Source: Thermoplasmata archaeon
GTDB taxonomy: Archaea > Thermoplasmatota > Thermoplasmata > Thermoplasmatales > ARK-15
Assembly: GCA_023261755.1 (NCBI GenBank)
Contig: JAGDXS010000037.1
Coordinates: 1 to 40,213 of the forward strand
Direction of reading: 5' to 3'
Length of the DNA stretch: 40,213 bases
The translations under genes were made by a program, and so were the position numbers. Below the pieces are notes generated by a model that saw only the letters and a program-made list of their open reading frames with translations, did no database searches and was not told the origin of the DNA. Shown here in pieces: positions 13,594 to 23,580 of the stretch (its first letter is position 1; the number at the start of each line of letters is the position of its first letter).

Positions 13594-13872
13594 TTATCCC
13601 CATCTGAAATTTACGCCAAAAGTTCCTCTAGGATAATTCCAGTCAATGTTTTGCTTATCGCACGATATTAGACAAGAACCGCATTCCACGCAATCTTCAT
13701 AATGAAAGACAATTTTGTTATTTTCTATTTTATAGCAAGATGCCGGACAAACATGAACGCAGTATTTTCCCTGGCAGCTATCACATACTCTATCATCTTT
13801 AAGTATTATATGCGGTTTGCTGTCTACCTTGTATTTTAATAAGGCAAGTCTATCATCTATGCTCAATTTCAT
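13594..13872 (-). CDS. fixX: Ferredoxin-like protein FixX
   Basis: A 92-residue ferredoxin partner of FixC/ETF:quinone oxidoreductase. Two cysteine clusters are visible, '[19 protein letters not shown]' and '[13 protein letters not shown]', enough for one or two [4Fe-4S] clusters, and the ending '[14 protein letters not shown]' is typical of FixX. The open frame reaches 13914, but a GGGGGTGA site precedes ATG 13872, which overlaps the fixC stop as ATGA. Electrons are thought to pass from the flavoprotein through FixX to quinone. FixA/FixB (the ETF itself) are not in the window. Confidence 0.9.
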
Positions 13873-15143
13873 AATGATTTCACCCCCTTTACAGCATCCT
13901 TTATTAGGTCCCATTGGTTAATTTCATACTTCAATAAATTAAGCAATTTTTGTTTTGGCTCACCATCAGAAATAATTATTTTTTCCATTAGATCTGTAAC
14001 TATTTTTGGATATTCGCTATACATCCTTGGATTTTCTAGGAAATATGGTGCATCTCTAAAGTTCCTAAATTCACTTAGCACCTTTTCTTCCATTTTCTTT
14101 TCGTATAAAGAAAGCGTTTTCGCTGAGTAATCTTTTACCTTTTTAGCTTCAATTGCTGTTTCAGCAGCAAGAATTCCTGATTTAACAGCAATATCCACGC
14201 CATTTAAATAAATGCCGGATGAACTAACAAGGCCCGCCGCATCTCCAACTACCATTACTCCATCTTTGTAGAGTTTTGAAATCATTCTATATCCGCCCTC
14301 AGGTATTGCATGGGCTGAATATTCTTTTAATTGGGCACCCTCAATTAAATCTTGAATCATAGGATGTTCCTTAAGATCTTCCATGAAATCAATGGCATAA
14401 TATTCACTTTTTCTCAATGCTTCTAGAGATACAATTACACCAATGGATATTGAGTCCTTGAATGTGTATATGAATCCACCACCTCTGAGATATTTTGTTG
14501 GATAACCTAATATAAGTTCTTCCACGCCATCTTTGCTGGTTATTCCAAATCTTTTGTTTACCTCTTCCTCTGAAAGTGTGAATACCTCTTTCATACCTAA
14601 ACCAAAATTATTCGGGTCGGGTCTTTCCTTGAGCCCTTCGGCCTGGGCTAAAAGAGAAACTGCGCCATCAGCAAGTATTACCATATCTGCTTCAAGTTCA
14701 TCATTTCCTGACTTTACACCAGATACTTTTCCATCTTGATGGAGGAGAGAATCCACCTTTACCCCTGGGGCGATCATACCTCCAGCTTCTTCTACCTTCT
14801 TGGAGAACCATTCATCAAACTTCGATCTAAACACAGAAAAACCGTTGTAAAAATCTCCTCTGAAATTATAGTTTTTATAATCAAAAGATAAAAATGATTT
14901 ATCCGTCATGAATGTTATTCTTCTTCTTGTAATTGGTCTTTCTACAGGAGCTTCTTTCCAGAAATCTGGTATTAGTTTTTTTAGAGAATCAGTATAAATT
15001 ACTCCACCGAAAACATTTTTTGAACCACTGTAATCGCCTCTTTCCAGAACTAGAGTGGATAACCCAGCTCTAGCAGTTACTAAGGCTGATGCCAAACCGG
15101 CTGGACCGCCACCGACTACAATTACATCAAATTTATCGCTCAT
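13869..15143 (-). CDS. fixC: FixC, electron-transfer-flavoprotein:quinone oxidoreductase
   Basis: A 424-residue FAD protein of the ETF-QO/FixC (geranylgeranyl reductase-like) family. It shows the FAD loop '[22 protein letters not shown]', '[19 protein letters not shown]' (typical FixC), '[16 protein letters not shown]' and the second FAD motif '[18 protein letters not shown]'. With FixX it would move electrons between ETF and the membrane quinone pool, in fatty-acid oxidation or flavin bifurcation. An in-frame ATG at 15158 lies before the GAGG ribosome-binding site, so ATG 15143 is preferred. Divergent from dsrE-tusA. Confidence 0.9.
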
Positions 15144-15365
15144 CCTATCAAACCTCATTCATAAATACAATCTTACGTATTTATTTTTTCATTATTTTAG
15201 TTTAAAATTCAAAAATTATTTTTTCTTTCATAAATGTTAAGTATATTTACATTTTATTTAAATATATATACATTTTTCGTAATTTTAATTCATTATTTTA
15301 TCATTATATGAAATAATTCGGAAAAATTATTATACTTAAATTAAATATCATGATTGGTGATAAAA

Positions 15366-16818: not shown

Positions 16819-17751
16819 TTATTTTATTTTTACCTCATTCTTTATTTTTTTCAATTCTTCCCTATTAGGTAAATAAGGATAGTTATATATTTTTCTTGGT
16901 TCTTCATTATAAAAAGGTCTGTTGCATCCTGGACAACCTGAAGTCATAAAACATTTGGCATCATCCATAACATTTTTTAGATATTCAGATTTTATTTTTG
17001 TCAATTCATGCTTTTCATTGAAAATGAAATCTTCAAATTCAGCTTTATAATCATATATAAGGCACCTTGAAATTTGAATTTTTCTATACCTTTCAATAGG
17101 TGGATAAGATCCTTTACCTAAGGCAGGCGTATATGAAAAAAGAGCGGTTGAAATGCCAAAATTTTTTAAATTAATCATTGTTTTAATGATATCCTCATCA
17201 CTTTCCCCAAGACCAACTATTAAATGAGTGTTCACGTTTTTAAAATAATTTTTTGCTTCAAGTAAATTTTTCCAATGACCTTCCCAAGTAAATCTATTAC
17301 CCCTTTCCTTTCCTTTTACTTTATCAAAAAGATCAGCGTTCGAGGCATCCAATGCTATACTTATTGTATCCACATATTCTGAAATTGATTTTAAATTACC
17401 ATTCAATGGTGGTGCGATTGAAACTGAAATCGGTATATTCAATTTATAAAATTCTGGGAGAATCTTTAAGAGATCTTCCATAACTTCAGGATAATCTAAT
17501 GTCTGAAAACATATCCTAGAATATTTTTTTCCATCTATTGCATCAATTATTTCATTTTCATTATATTCATACCAGGTAACTCTTGATAATTTTTCCCTCA
17601 TTCTTGCATCTTTAGATTGAGTACAGAAAGAACAATTTGATATGCATTCATTTCCTACCATTAAATAAAGAGTAGTGAATGGTATATTTAGTTTACCTTT
17701 TATTAAATTTAAAGACATTGCGGAACCAAGTGAAAGTTTTATTTTTACCAT
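16819..17751 (-). CDS. Radical SAM protein, archaeal lipoyl-synthase (LipS)-like
   Basis: A 310-residue radical SAM enzyme. The SAM-binding cluster motif is Cys36-x3-Cys40-x2-Cys43 ('ECISNCSFCTQ'), within a biotin-synthase-like scaffold that includes 'SIALDASNADLFDKVKG' and 'THLIVGLGESDEDI'. A second set near the C-terminus, Cys267-x5-Cys273-x2-Cys276 in 'CFMTSGCPGCNRPFYNE', could hold an auxiliary Fe-S cluster. That arrangement resembles the split lipoyl synthases LipS1/LipS2 described in Thermococcus; the presence of lplB in this window fits. This assignment is an inference from memory of the family, and a biotin-synthase-like enzyme with another substrate is the alternative. Radical SAM membership is certain. 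Confidence 0.62.
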   Translation of the reverse strand: MVKIKLSLGSAMSLNLIKGKLNIPFTTLYLMVGNECISNCSFCTQSKDARMREKLSRVTWYEYNENEIIDAIDGKKYSRICFQTLDYPEVMEDLLKILPEFYKLNIPISVSIAPPLNGNLKSISEYVDTISIALDASNADLFDKVKGKERGNRFTWEGHWKNLLEAKNYFKNVNTHLIVGLGESDEDIIKTMINLKNFGISTALFSYTPALGKGSYPPIERYRKIQISRCLIYDYKAEFEDFIFNEKHELTKIKSEYLKNVMDDAKCFMTSGCPGCNRPFYNEEPRKIYNYPYLPNREELKKIKNEVKIK

Positions 17752-19405: not shown

Positions 19406-20278
19406 ATGAAACTTTTTTTTATAATAAATCCAGTAGCTGGTAGAGGCAGAGCATTAAAAAGCTGGGAAATTAAAAAGAAATATATTTTCGATAAAGTAGG
19501 TGAACAGCCATTTGAGTTTACCAAGTACAAAGGCCATGCAAAGGAAATAGCTAGGAAAGCATCGGTTGAAGATTTTGATCTAATTGTATCATGCGGTGGC
19601 GATGGCACTTTAAATGAAGTTTTGAATGGCGTTATTGGATCAGATAAAACTATTTCAATTATCCCCCTCGGAACAGGATCAGACTTCGGAAAAACAATAG
19701 GTATAAGATCCGTTGAAGATTTTCTTAGGGCAATTAAAAATAAGAGGATCATGGAATCTGATACAGTAAAAGTTACTTTTTCAACAAATGAAATTAGATA
19801 TTTTATTAATATATTGGAAATAGGTTTTGGTGCAGAAGTGATGGAATATGTTAATAAACATAAATCTCTAGGCAGGTATTCTTTTATTTTTGGTGTATTT
19901 GCAACATTATCAAAAATGAATAAATTTAATTTAACGATAAAAATGAACGACGAAATATTTGAATTTACCACAATTGAAGCAATTTTTGCCAATGGTAAAT
20001 ACTTCGGGGGTGGTATGCTAGCATCGCCAAATTCAAATATATACGATGGAATCTTAGATTTACATATTCTTAAGCCATTTTCAAAGATAAAATCTGCACT
20101 TAATTTAAAATCCTTGATGAATGGCACTTACATAGAAAAGAATTATGCACACAATTTTGAAGGAAAATATTTTGAAATACTTAACGGGAATCAATTGGTA
20201 GAAATGGAAGGAGAAGTGGTTGGAAAAACACCATTAAAAATAGAGATGGATAAAAAAATTAATATTATGGTACCATGA
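19406..20278 (+). CDS. Diacylglycerol kinase-family lipid kinase
   Basis: A 290-residue protein of the DAGK catalytic / YegS / sphingosine-kinase fold. Hallmarks are 'FIINPVAGRGRA' at the N-terminus, the nucleotide motif 'VSCGGDGTLNEVLNGV' (Gly-Gly-Asp-Gly-Thr at 64-68), 'IIPLGTGSDFGKTIG', and 'FANGKYFGGGMLASPNSNIYDGILDL' (in part). It phosphorylates a lipid alcohol with ATP; in archaea the likely substrate is an isoprenoid ether lipid or a polyprenol, which is an inference. It stands alone between two - strand operons. Confidence 0.9.
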   Translation: MKLFFIINPVAGRGRALKSWEIKKKYIFDKVGEQPFEFTKYKGHAKEIARKASVEDFDLIVSCGGDGTLNEVLNGVIGSDKTISIIPLGTGSDFGKTIGIRSVEDFLRAIKNKRIMESDTVKVTFSTNEIRYFINILEIGFGAEVMEYVNKHKSLGRYSFIFGVFATLSKMNKFNLTIKMNDEIFEFTTIEAIFANGKYFGGGMLASPNSNIYDGILDLHILKPFSKIKSALNLKSLMNGTYIEKNYAHNFEGKYFEILNGNQLVEMEGEVVGKTPLKIEMDKKINIMVP

Positions 20279-20279
20279 A

Positions 20280-22025
20280 TCACCATCCCCTTAGCTTGTA
20301 ATATCTGGCCAGAAGGGATTTTAATTCATTATCTGTCATCTGTGATTCCTCAGGTTCATTCTCTATTTTTGATCTTACAATTTTTGGAAGATAATCATCA
20401 TCTTTGCTTAAACCTAAAGATTCATTTATTTTTCTTTTTTTGTTTATAATTTTAGATCCTATTTCCATCAATTCTTCTAGGGTTACATTAAAACCTGTTG
20501 CAAGATTGTATGCATTTTTTATATCTTCTGGAGATGGTTGTGCATAATAGCAAATGATTAGAGAATTATATATCTGCCTGAAATCCTGTGTTTTTATTAC
20601 TGACATTACCCTTTCGTCAGAATCGACAATCCATCTATCACCCATAGTGATACCCAATTCCTCATGGGATCCACCGATATCCACTTGGTACATATCACCC
20701 TGCATATGGTCTGCACCCCTTGAAGATGTTGCATATACCAATCCTTGAAGTTTAAATGCCCTTGGATCATGCATTGGAACTTCAAGATTCTTGACTGTGG
20801 CTATTAAATCCCTTTCAATTCCCTTAGATAGAGCAAACCTTTCAAGTCCAAAGGAAAGGTCATTTCCTATGCCTTTTTTATAGGCAATATCCTTTATGAG
20901 ATCAGTAACATGATCAAAATTGTTTGAAAGGTAATTCTTCAAATTTTCATCATTCAACAAATTATTCTTTATATAATAATTAAGAGCTGAAATAAGAACA
21001 CCTGTACTTATTGAATCCAAGCCGAGAGAATTTACCAAATGGTTCCATAGTATAATTTTTTCCATGTCCTGATTCCCCAAAAGAGAACCAAAGGCTGCTA
21101 CAGTTTCATATTCAGGGCCATCAATTTTAAATGATTTATAAGAAACAGTTCTACCACAACCTATTACGCATGAAGAACAATGATAACTTGTAACATTAAA
21201 AGTTTCATGGAATTTAATACTACTTAAAGAATCGTATGGAAAATCATGATCATGGTAATAATTAGCAGGTACATCGCCAAAACCTTGACCACCATCAATC
21301 CATATCATACTTCCATAATTTTTAAAACCTGAAACTACAGGAGATTCAATAATCTGCTTTGCAATAGAAACAGCTAGCTTGTTAAATTCATTTTTATTGT
21401 AAAGTGGAATAATATTTTTTCCTCTTACTGCTATAGCTTTTAATTTTTTTGACCCAAAAACAGCTCCAAGACCTGTTCGACCTGCTGCACGGCCTTCATC
21501 GTTCATCACAGAAGAGAAATAAACAAGATTCTCACCAGCTGGCCCAATAGTCATTACAGAAAATTTTTTCCTTTCATTTATTTTTTTCTGAGTTGAATAA
21601 ATATCTAGGCCCCAAAGATTTGAAGCATCTTCTATGTTTATATTACCATCATCTATGTATATTATTCTCGGGATATCAGATTTACCAACTATCACTATAC
21701 CGTCATACCCTGACCTCTTAAGCTCATATCCAAAATGTCCGCCAGAATTTGCTTCTCCTAAGAAATTTGTCTGTGGTGATCTGCTAACAATTTCATGCCT
21801 TCCAGAATTGGGGAACGCAGTTCCAACAAATGGACCAGTCATTATTATTATAGGGTTTTTTCCATCGAACGGATCATTTATTCCGTATTTTTCAAATAAA
21901 AAGGAAGCTATCCCTATACCACCTATATAATTTTCCCAAGCGTCATCAATGCCTTCTGTCCAAATTTCATTACTTGATAAATTAATAAAAAGGATTTTAT
22001 CCCAAAATCCTGGCAAGCTAATCAC
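20280..22025 (-). CDS. Aldehyde:ferredoxin oxidoreductase (AOR family)
   Basis: A 581-residue tungsten-pterin enzyme of the AOR family that oxidises aldehydes to acids with ferredoxin. The N-terminal 'GFWDKILFINLSSNEIW' and 'GPAGENLVYFSSVMNDEGRAAGRTGLGAVFGSKKLKAI' (in pieces) are family signatures. The [4Fe-4S] ligands Cys283, Cys286, Cys290 and Cys492 line up with Cys288/291/295/494 of Pyrococcus AOR. The pterin-site motif is 'TSSRGADHM'. The start is GTG at 22025, overlapping the upstream dehydrogenase by 8 nt. Substrate is unknown; glyceraldehyde, as in sugar-degrading archaea, or an aldehyde made by the adjacent alcohol dehydrogenase are both possible. Confidence 0.92.
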   Translation of the reverse strand: MISLPGFWDKILFINLSSNEIWTEGIDDAWENYIGGIGIASFLFEKYGINDPFDGKNPIIIMTGPFVGTAFPNSGRHEIVSRSPQTNFLGEANSGGHFGYELKRSGYDGIVIVGKSDIPRIIYIDDGNINIEDASNLWGLDIYSTQKKINERKKFSVMTIGPAGENLVYFSSVMNDEGRAAGRTGLGAVFGSKKLKAIAVRGKNIIPLYNKNEFNKLAVSIAKQIIESPVVSGFKNYGSMIWIDGGQGFGDVPANYYHDHDFPYDSLSSIKFHETFNVTSYHCSSCVIGCGRTVSYKSFKIDGPEYETVAAFGSLLGNQDMEKIILWNHLVNSLGLDSISTGVLISALNYYIKNNLLNDENLKNYLSNNFDHVTDLIKDIAYKKGIGNDLSFGLERFALSKGIERDLIATVKNLEVPMHDPRAFKLQGLVYATSSRGADHMQGDMYQVDIGGSHEELGITMGDRWIVDSDERVMSVIKTQDFRQIYNSLIICYYAQPSPEDIKNAYNLATGFNVTLEELMEIGSKIINKKRKINESLGLSKDDDYLPKIVRSKIENEPEESQMTDNELKSLLARYYKLRGW

Positions 22026-23124
22026 CGTAAGCTTTTAGATATATATTTTTTAGGTCGTCTTCACCTGCGATCACAGGATTAAAGGCAAGTTCACTGTCCA
22101 TTAATGCTTTGCTTACCAATTCATCAATCTTTGAAATATATTCTTTTTTGCTAATGTTTAAATCTTTTACATAACATGGTTGTCCCACATCTCTATAAAA
22201 ATTTTTAATTCCATCTATAAGATTTTCGAGGCCCAATATCCTTTCAACTTTTTTGTATTTTTCATTAGTGGTCATATCCTGAGAATTAAAATCAATTACG
22301 TATGGTAAGAATAATCCCACCGATGTTCCATGTGTAATATGAAAAGTAGCGCCAAAACTATGTCCTAATGCATGTGCAAGTGCAGTTCCACTGTTTGAGA
22401 ATGCCATACCAGCCATGGTCGCTGATAGATGTAGAAGATCCTTTGCATTTTCTTCATTTTCCATTCCTTTTTTTAAATTTTTGAATATTATTTCTATTGA
22501 TTTTTCTGCCAGTGCATCCGTAAGTATTGTACTCGTATTTGCAGATAAAGCCTCAAAAGAATGAACAAAAGCATCTATACCAGTGGACCTTACTATTTCC
22601 TTAGAATAAGGTGTTAAAGAAGAATCTAATATTGTAAGCATGGGAACAAGGGCATAATTTCCTAAAGCCAATTTTCTAGGTCCATCAGTTAAAACTATGC
22701 CAAATGAAACATCACTGCCAGTTCCAGATGTTGTTGGTACAGATATTAATTTTAAATTTATTAATAATCTATTGAAAGGATTAATATCCCTTAAATCCAT
22801 ATCAGGATAAGAAAATTTTATTGCCATGGATTTTGCGAAATCCATTACACTGCCTCCACCAATTGCAACAATTGTATCCGGTTCCATTATTTTTAATTCA
22901 TTAAATGCGTTCTCAATGCTCAATATGGAGGGCTCCGGTTCTACATTATCATAAACTCTATAATTTTTAGAACCTAGTGATTTCCTAATTCTTTCACCAT
23001 GGATATTTAGAATATTTTTATCAGTAATTATTAAAATGTTCAAAGAATCTGAAAGAATTTCTCCCAGGGAATCAACAATATCTCTTTGAAAATATATCTG
23101 CCTAGGAAAAGTAAATAGGGACAT
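22018..23124 (-). CDS. Iron-containing alcohol dehydrogenase
   Basis: A 368-residue group III (iron-dependent) alcohol dehydrogenase. The NAD(P) loop is 'VAIGGGSVMDFAKSMA'. The metal ligands are Asp184 and His188 ('TGIDAFVHSFEA') with His251 and His265 ('HALGHSFGATFHITHG'); their spacing (4, 63, 14) equals that of E. coli FucO. It interconverts an alcohol and an aldehyde or ketone. Three nt separate it from the SCP2 gene and it overlaps the AOR gene by 8 nt, so the alcohol it oxidises probably feeds AOR as aldehyde, or the pair reduces an acid to an alcohol. Confidence 0.93.
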   Translation of the reverse strand: MSLFTFPRQIYFQRDIVDSLGEILSDSLNILIITDKNILNIHGERIRKSLGSKNYRVYDNVEPEPSILSIENAFNELKIMEPDTIVAIGGGSVMDFAKSMAIKFSYPDMDLRDINPFNRLLINLKLISVPTTSGTGSDVSFGIVLTDGPRKLALGNYALVPMLTILDSSLTPYSKEIVRSTGIDAFVHSFEALSANTSTILTDALAEKSIEIIFKNLKKGMENEENAKDLLHLSATMAGMAFSNSGTALAHALGHSFGATFHITHGTSVGLFLPYVIDFNSQDMTTNEKYKKVERILGLENLIDGIKNFYRDVGQPCYVKDLNISKKEYISKIDELVSKALMDSELAFNPVIAGEDDLKNIYLKAYGD

Positions 23125-23127
23125 AAT

Positions 23128-23550
23128 TTACTCCAAAAATCTTGTTGGTATGCTCTGAGCTACCTTAACCATAGCTATTGCAGCTGAAGCGTATCTTAAC
23201 AATAGTGCCATGTTACCCTCTACCTTCATCTGTCCTGTAAGCATTGCCTGTGTAGGATTAATTTTTCCATCAATGATTTTTTTCCAGTTAGCATACGTTG
23301 CAGTCAATTTAAATGGTGCAGTTTTGTCATTATTTTTTACTACTTCACAATTTTCACAGATCCCATCCTTTAAATAGAGAATGAAGGAATCAAACTCAGG
23401 CTTTTCTTTGAGTTTTTCTATATCTGTCATTTTAAAAAGTATTGGATCTTTCCAACCCTTTCCAGCCTTGTTATAATCAGGTGATTCTTTGAGTCTCTTG
23501 CAATATTCCACTACCCATCCCTCTGAAGGGAACAAAAATTTTTCTTCCAT
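23128..23550 (-). CDS. SCP2 sterol-binding domain protein
   Basis: A 140-residue SCP2-like lipid-binding protein. The family pattern is seen in 'LKLTATYANWKKIIDGKINPTQAMLTGQMKVEGNMALLLR' (from about 95, quoted in part with FKL at its start), preceded by 'WVVEYCKRLKESPDYNKAG'. Proteins of this fold bind hydrophobic ligands such as acyl-CoA. A TTG at 23571 is in frame, but ATG 23550 lies 25 nt from a TATA box (ACTATATATT, 23571-23580), so the transcript is leaderless. As first gene of the SCP2-ADH-AOR operon it suggests that the alcohol or aldehyde substrate is hydrophobic. Confidence 0.85.
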   Translation of the reverse strand: MEEKFLFPSEGWVVEYCKRLKESPDYNKAGKGWKDPILFKMTDIEKLKEKPEFDSFILYLKDGICENCEVVKNNDKTAPFKLTATYANWKKIIDGKINPTQAMLTGQMKVEGNMALLLRYASAAIAMVKVAQSIPTRFLE

Positions 23551-23570: not shown

Positions 23571-23580
23571 AATATATAGT
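23571..23580 (-). promoter_or_regulatory. TATA box of the SCP2-ADH-AOR operon
   Basis: ACTATATATT on the - strand lies in the short gap after the coiled-coil gene, about 25 nt before ATG 23550. It supports an independent promoter for the three-gene operon rather than read-through from the upstream gene. Confidence 0.55.

Follow-up and report, generated by a model that had tools for sequence, protein, structure and literature searches.

Based on a survey of gene neighbourhoods in 117 genomes of the order Thermoplasmatales, we found that the genes for an SCP2-domain protein, an iron-type alcohol dehydrogenase (ADH) and a tungsten-type aldehyde:ferredoxin oxidoreductase (AOR) form a real operon and not a chance arrangement, since the order SCP2-ADH-AOR is kept in eight genomes from two families (G000, G001, G002, G004, G015, G027, G051 and G101) and SCP2 adjoins ADH at 52 of the 59 ADH loci (51 genomes). 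A route from alcohol through aldehyde to acid is strongly implied for this operon, because an aldehyde dehydrogenase (ALDH) replaces AOR in relatives. From the genes that accompany it we propose, with belief and doubt almost evenly balanced, that the operon is the alcohol-to-acid arm of a lipid-scavenging or ether-lipid breakdown pathway in which an AGPS-like flavoprotein would cleave the ether.

The window, the whole 40,213-nucleotide stretch of DNA that was analysed, is contig C15 of a 93% complete, 1.22-Mb MAG from an acid-loving archaeon of the Thermoplasmatales. The operon lies on the minus strand and is transcribed in the order SCP2, ADH, AOR, with the following features:

23128..23550, minus strand, SCP2-domain protein, first operon gene, 140 aa (Pfam SCP2)
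22018..23124, minus strand, iron-type (group III) ADH, 368 aa (PF00465/PF25137)
20280..22025, minus strand, tungsten-type AOR, 581 aa, GTG start (PF02730/PF01314)
19406..20278, plus strand, YegS/DAGK-type lipid kinase, convergent with AOR, 290 aa (PF00781, TIGR00147)
23573..23579, minus strand, TATA-like CTATATA ahead of the SCP2 gene (distance to its ATG about 23 nt), a weak feature by consensus only

A first-pass annotation had described three genes separated by 3 nt or overlapping by 8 nt, with SCP2 first. These coordinates and this order were reproduced: the SCP2-ADH gap covers 23125-23127 and the ADH-AOR overlap 22018-22025, given the GTG start of AOR, although the true start, judged from orthologues, may be the TTG at 22016. 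The SCP2 gene (Pfam 3.7e-13) heads the operon with its ATG at 23550; the mechanical open reading frame opens upstream, at TTG 23571. The CTATATA element would suit a leaderless operon transcript, but the match is weak.

The adjacency of SCP2 and ADH includes pairs with 35-40% identity to the window proteins; like most of our adjacency and co-occurrence counts, its frequency ignores the relatedness of the genomes. In most f6 genomes the third slot is occupied by an ALDH (PF00171, E=4e-157). No genome carried both enzymes: 46 had ALDH and 13 had an AOR of the operon's clade. The 58 genomes with ADH divided into 13 with AOR, 41 with ALDH and 4 that lacked both (Fisher p=7.5e-10, uncorrected for phylogeny). 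The switch between AOR and ALDH was also seen inside genera, namely in Thermoplasma and in the f3 genus g5. As an unrelated ALDH takes the AOR slot, the third enzyme would therefore convert the aldehyde made by ADH to the acid, and this exchange is the strongest functional evidence that AOR oxidises that aldehyde. The alcohol-aldehyde-acid redox path of the first-pass annotation is thus backed by the relatives. Its three-gene unit stood as a conserved operon, but AOR proved to be the variable member (13 genomes) and the core is SCP2-ADH, usually with ALDH.

The window genome encodes five AORs. The AOR of the operon matched both Pfam domains of the family (AFOR_N 8.3e-72, AFOR_C 9.1e-85), and its nearest solved structure was 1aor, the AOR of Pyrococcus furiosus (E=1.2e-102). 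Four cysteines aligned with the Fe-S ligands C288, C291, C295 and C494 of the P. furiosus enzyme, in agreement with the earlier description of a tungsten-type AOR with all four Fe-S cysteines; by family, the enzyme would use tungsten, with ferredoxin as acceptor. The 12 aligned members formed one clade with 100/100 support and a long stem, and the references (P. furiosus AOR and FOR, Aromatoleum AOR and two other solved AORs) all fell outside it. Orthologues with 57-71% identity occurred only in families f1 and f3 and in Thermoplasma (13 genomes including G101), and relatives with 39-41% identity were found in two genomes elsewhere in the phylum. On this tree, the operon AOR belongs to its own uncharacterised clade of the tungsten AOR family.

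The four cysteines, E313 and H448 were kept throughout the 12 members, which also had the signature N338/N489/I492 in common. In the pterin-binding DxxGL(C/D) motifs, D338 is replaced by N in the clade and likewise in the solved proteins 9mqx, 9g7j and 8c0z, whereas D489N and G492I were present in 12/12 members and set them apart from the five solved proteins compared. E332L and D338N were at first considered as defects, but E332 is variable among clade members and D338N is present in solved AORs, so this reading was given up.

Glyceraldehyde oxidation in a non-phosphorylative Entner-Doudoroff pathway could be considered for the operon, given that GAPOR lies within the same broad AOR family and that the NCBIfam GAPOR model gave a weak partial match. 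However, the score was 45 bits where the model demands 1300, and the clade stands apart from all characterised rows, so an identity of the AOR as a glyceraldehyde or GAPOR enzyme was rejected. The glyceraldehyde step of T. acidophilum is carried out by an NADP-linked aldehyde dehydrogenase, and we give this pathway practically no credence. Both outcomes that had been named beforehand as speaking against the first-pass reading, a glyceraldehyde-type clustering of the AOR and an unconserved ADH/SCP2 linkage, were absent from our results.

The similarity to P. furiosus AOR also bears on the direction of the route. AOR-ADH acid reduction is established elsewhere and has been proposed for Pyrococcus and acetogens, and the operon might similarly dispose of electrons by reducing acid to aldehyde and alcohol, in which case SCP2 would bind the fatty substrate. 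This direction agrees poorly with the exchange of AOR for an NAD(P)-type ALDH, an enzyme that is effectively irreversible towards acid, and we consider it very improbable.

The best PDB match of the SCP2 protein was Thermus TTHA1886 (about 1e-15), and its AlphaFold2 model (pLDDT 88) matched lipid-binding SCP2 folds in Foldseek, again with TTHA1886 as the best (2cx7, E=1.5e-11, TM 0.75-0.81), which makes a carrier of hydrophobic substrates its probable role. The ADH has the features of iron-containing (group III) enzymes, namely the Fe-ADH domains (Pfam 2.1e-32 and 4.3e-41), the DHHH metal site and the GGGSxxD motif, and the metal ligands D184, H188, H251 and H265 as well as D35 were kept in 24/24 homologues. 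Its best PDB match was 9knp, which we take to be a Pyrococcus-type ADH, and the enzyme is probably NAD-linked.

The hydrophobic substrate proposed in the first-pass annotation fits the lipid enzymes encoded nearby. Most of the content of our substrate hypothesis comes from this wider gene set, which was absent from that annotation and comprises the kinase, AGPS-like, GlpD-like and PLC-like proteins and a 2-oxoacid decarboxylase. The lipid kinase matched PF00781, and TIGR00147 above the model's own cut-off; its convergent layout with ADH-SCP2, with or without AOR, recurred in loci L042, L048, L050 and L060-L063 of f1 and f3 genomes. In f6 genomes the kinase sits inside an AGPS-GlpD-kinase operon, an order that was also found in another family of the same class (L114, L115, L120). 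At 36/57 AGPS-like loci SCP2 lay no more than 16 kb away, where about 1 would be expected by chance, and at 34/57 a GlpD-like gene lay no more than 2.5 kb away. The AGPS-like gene was present in 49 of the 58 ADH genomes (p=2e-15, uncorrected for phylogeny).

A PLC-like phosphoesterase gene precedes the AGPS-like gene in G002 and in the window genome, where PLC-c11-AGPS is found on contig C17 and the decarboxylase on contig C4. Read by eye, the PLC-like protein has a signal-like segment at the N terminus and a hydrophobic segment at the C terminus, and this phospholipase-C-like enzyme is predicted to be secreted. A search of the window's genome for a GlpD-like orthologue gave no match at E<=1e-50. 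In genome G086 (L075), ALDH-ADH-SCP2, hydroxyacid dehydrogenase-decarboxylase, PLC and kinase-GlpD-AGPS all lie within 13 kb.

The decarboxylase, a ThDP enzyme of the benzoylformate-decarboxylase type, was encoded within 12 kb of SCP2 in 22/56 cases, usually accompanied by a 2-hydroxyacid dehydrogenase, and in four f3 genomes the pair is located directly beside AOR. This pairing would also be expected in an Ehrlich-type amino-acid catabolism, where decarboxylated 2-oxoacids give aldehydes that AOR or ALDH would take to the acid or ADH to the alcohol, SCP2 being incidental. Such a lifestyle would suit Cuniculiplasma, for which scavenging of proteinaceous compounds has been described (PMC5155288). 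However, the tightest pair in the neighbourhood is SCP2-ADH, and the SCP2, lipid kinase, PLC-like, GlpD-like and AGPS-like neighbours would be left unexplained, so that we regard amino-acid catabolism as improbable.

The AGPS-like protein matched alkyl-DHAP synthase at 5e-67, with the next, non-AGPS family at 1.6e-18. The catalytic residues Y578, R419, H616 and H617 were present in 47/47 and H615 in 42/47 of the archaeal proteins, whereas R515, the counterpart of Dictyostelium R447 that is essential for ADPS catalysis, was lost in 44/47 and kept in 3/47. We therefore call the protein AGPS-like and not AGPS. In other classes it clusters with GlpA/B/C-like, DUF1667 and glycerol kinase genes, where it could possibly act as a redox subunit.

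The operon module is separable from this gene, because SCP2-ADH-AOR was found without it in G001, G015 and G027 and SCP2-ADH-ALDH in G024. The persistence of the operon in G001 and in some Thermoplasma genomes that lack the AGPS-like gene would be expected if it were a general module for the oxidation or detoxification of long-chain alcohols and aldehydes, with SCP2 as carrier and coupled to ether cleavage only sometimes. The alcohols would then come from phytol, wax or isoprenoid alcohols, or the aldehydes from an S1P-lyase-like enzyme, and a homologue of S1P lyase (E=2e-138 to 3mad) is indeed encoded near SCP2 in several loci. The frequency at which the AGPS-like gene lies near SCP2 and co-occurs with ADH speaks against such a general role, and we consider it rather unlikely.

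In the ether-lipid breakdown that we favour, whose gene set is spread over several loci, we infer substrates, directions and cofactors as follows. The PLC-like enzyme, predicted to be secreted, would remove head groups, the YegS-type kinase would phosphorylate (mono)alkylglycerol, and the GlpD-like flavoprotein would form alkyl-DHAP by oxidising the free hydroxyl. From this product the AGPS-like flavoprotein, working in the cleaving direction, would release DHAP and an alcohol. SCP2 would carry this long-chain or isoprenoid alcohol, the iron-type ADH would use NAD+ to turn it into the aldehyde, and AOR would oxidise the aldehyde to the acid and reduce ferredoxin. The whole scheme would amount to plasmalogen-type ether synthesis run in reverse. 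Additionally, the 2-hydroxyacid dehydrogenase and the 2-oxoacid decarboxylase may perform an alpha-oxidation of the 3-methyl-branched acid, yielding a second aldehyde that may be used by the same AOR or ALDH. In animals, alpha-oxidation bypasses the 3-methyl branch of phytanyl chains, and decarboxylation of the 2-oxo acid would do the same here. Several points weigh against the scheme: it offers no route for removal of the sn-2 ether of archaeol, R515 is lost in most of the AGPS-like proteins, the operon can occur without the AGPS-like gene, the window's genome yielded no GlpD-like orthologue at the threshold used, AGPS in the cleaving direction is absent from the papers that we found, and in other classes the AGPS-like protein may have a redox role. 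The more specific version, in which the operon is the terminal arm of a first gene-level archaeal ether-lipid catabolism that joins O2-independent AGPS-like cleavage in reverse with ADH, a new AOR clade and alpha-oxidation, is to us a doubtful though serious candidate.

To our knowledge, no archaeal genes have been assigned to ether-lipid breakdown. The gene-level breakdown of these lipids is largely obscure, yet their fate underlies geochemical biomarkers. If the scheme is true, archaeal AGPS homologues would be breakers and not makers of ether lipids, and the named genes would make the question testable in culturable relatives of Thermoplasma, Ferroplasma and Cuniculiplasma. Substrates of the uncharacterised AOR clade could also be predicted from the exchange of AOR and ALDH.

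Archaeal lipid turnover has been called poorly studied (PMC12718374), and prokaryotic AGPS homologues have been treated as biosynthetic enzymes that make ether lipids (PMC11868695, PMC11383801). In the open-licence PMC literature we came across no account of archaeal ether-lipid breakdown by this gene set, no documentation of AGPS in the cleaving direction and nothing directly relevant that links SCP2 with AOR, and the first-pass view that no pathway with this set had been described holds in that literature.

The window enzyme has the AFOR_N/C domains of P. furiosus AOR (1aor) as well as its four Fe-S cysteines, E313 and H448. It differs by N338 for D338, N489 for D489 and I492 for G492, and it lacks the dimer-bridging pair E332/H383 (L332, T383). 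As in the AOR-ADH pathway of Pyrococcus and acetogens, AOR and ADH would share one aldehyde; here, in contrast, AOR is interchangeable with ALDH, and we know of no SCP2 or lipid genes in that pathway. The eukaryotic and bacterial AGPS/ADPS pathway of ether-lipid synthesis has in common with our scheme a flavoprotein with the catalytic Tyr, Arg419 and HH(H) motif and the logic of fatty alcohol plus DHAP. It differs in that the reverse direction is proposed here, that R515 is lost in Thermoplasmatales, and that a kinase and an FAD dehydrogenase would replace the acyltransferase and reductase. A catabolic parallel in outline is the animal AGMO-FALDH breakdown, which also leads from ether lipid to aldehyde and fatty acid; AGMO has been called the sole enzyme known to break alkylglycerols (PMC7911779). 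However, AGMO is an oxygen- and tetrahydrobiopterin-dependent monooxygenase, whereas the archaeal route would yield the alcohol first and may end in an oxygen-independent AOR.

The window also encodes the following proteins outside the operon:
16819-17751, a LipS2-type archaeal lipoyl synthase (NCBIfam score above the cut-off)
13594-15158, an ETF-QO/FixC-like flavoprotein and its ferredoxin-like partner
A nitrilase-family gene lies downstream of the lipoyl synthase gene, and the flavoprotein pair is a possible point of electron entry from acyl-CoA oxidation.

In genome G027, where the SCP2-ADH-AOR order is kept, the operon ADH (L044:7955-9072) consists of two ORFs instead of one, and these are connected by an ATGA overlap at approximately residue 216. 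The split may mark a pseudogene or reflect a frameshift, or the enzyme may genuinely be built from two pieces. Another genome with this order, G000, carries on a single contig, C21:
6152-6568, a second SCP2, with a TAA inside the tool-matched stretch
21032-22831, another AOR paralogue

In other Thermoplasmatota classes the AGPS-like gene comes first in a cluster with GlpC/GlpA/GlpB-like, DUF1667 and glycerol kinase genes (loci L113, L116-L119, L121-L124, L126 and L127). Close to the lipid gene set, a sphingosine-1-phosphate lyase homologue recurs together with an FGGY kinase and an MFS transporter (loci L065, L072 and L055), often accompanied by a second SCP2. The homologue (L065:11476-12864; also in L072 and L055) strongly matched 3mad (E=2e-138).
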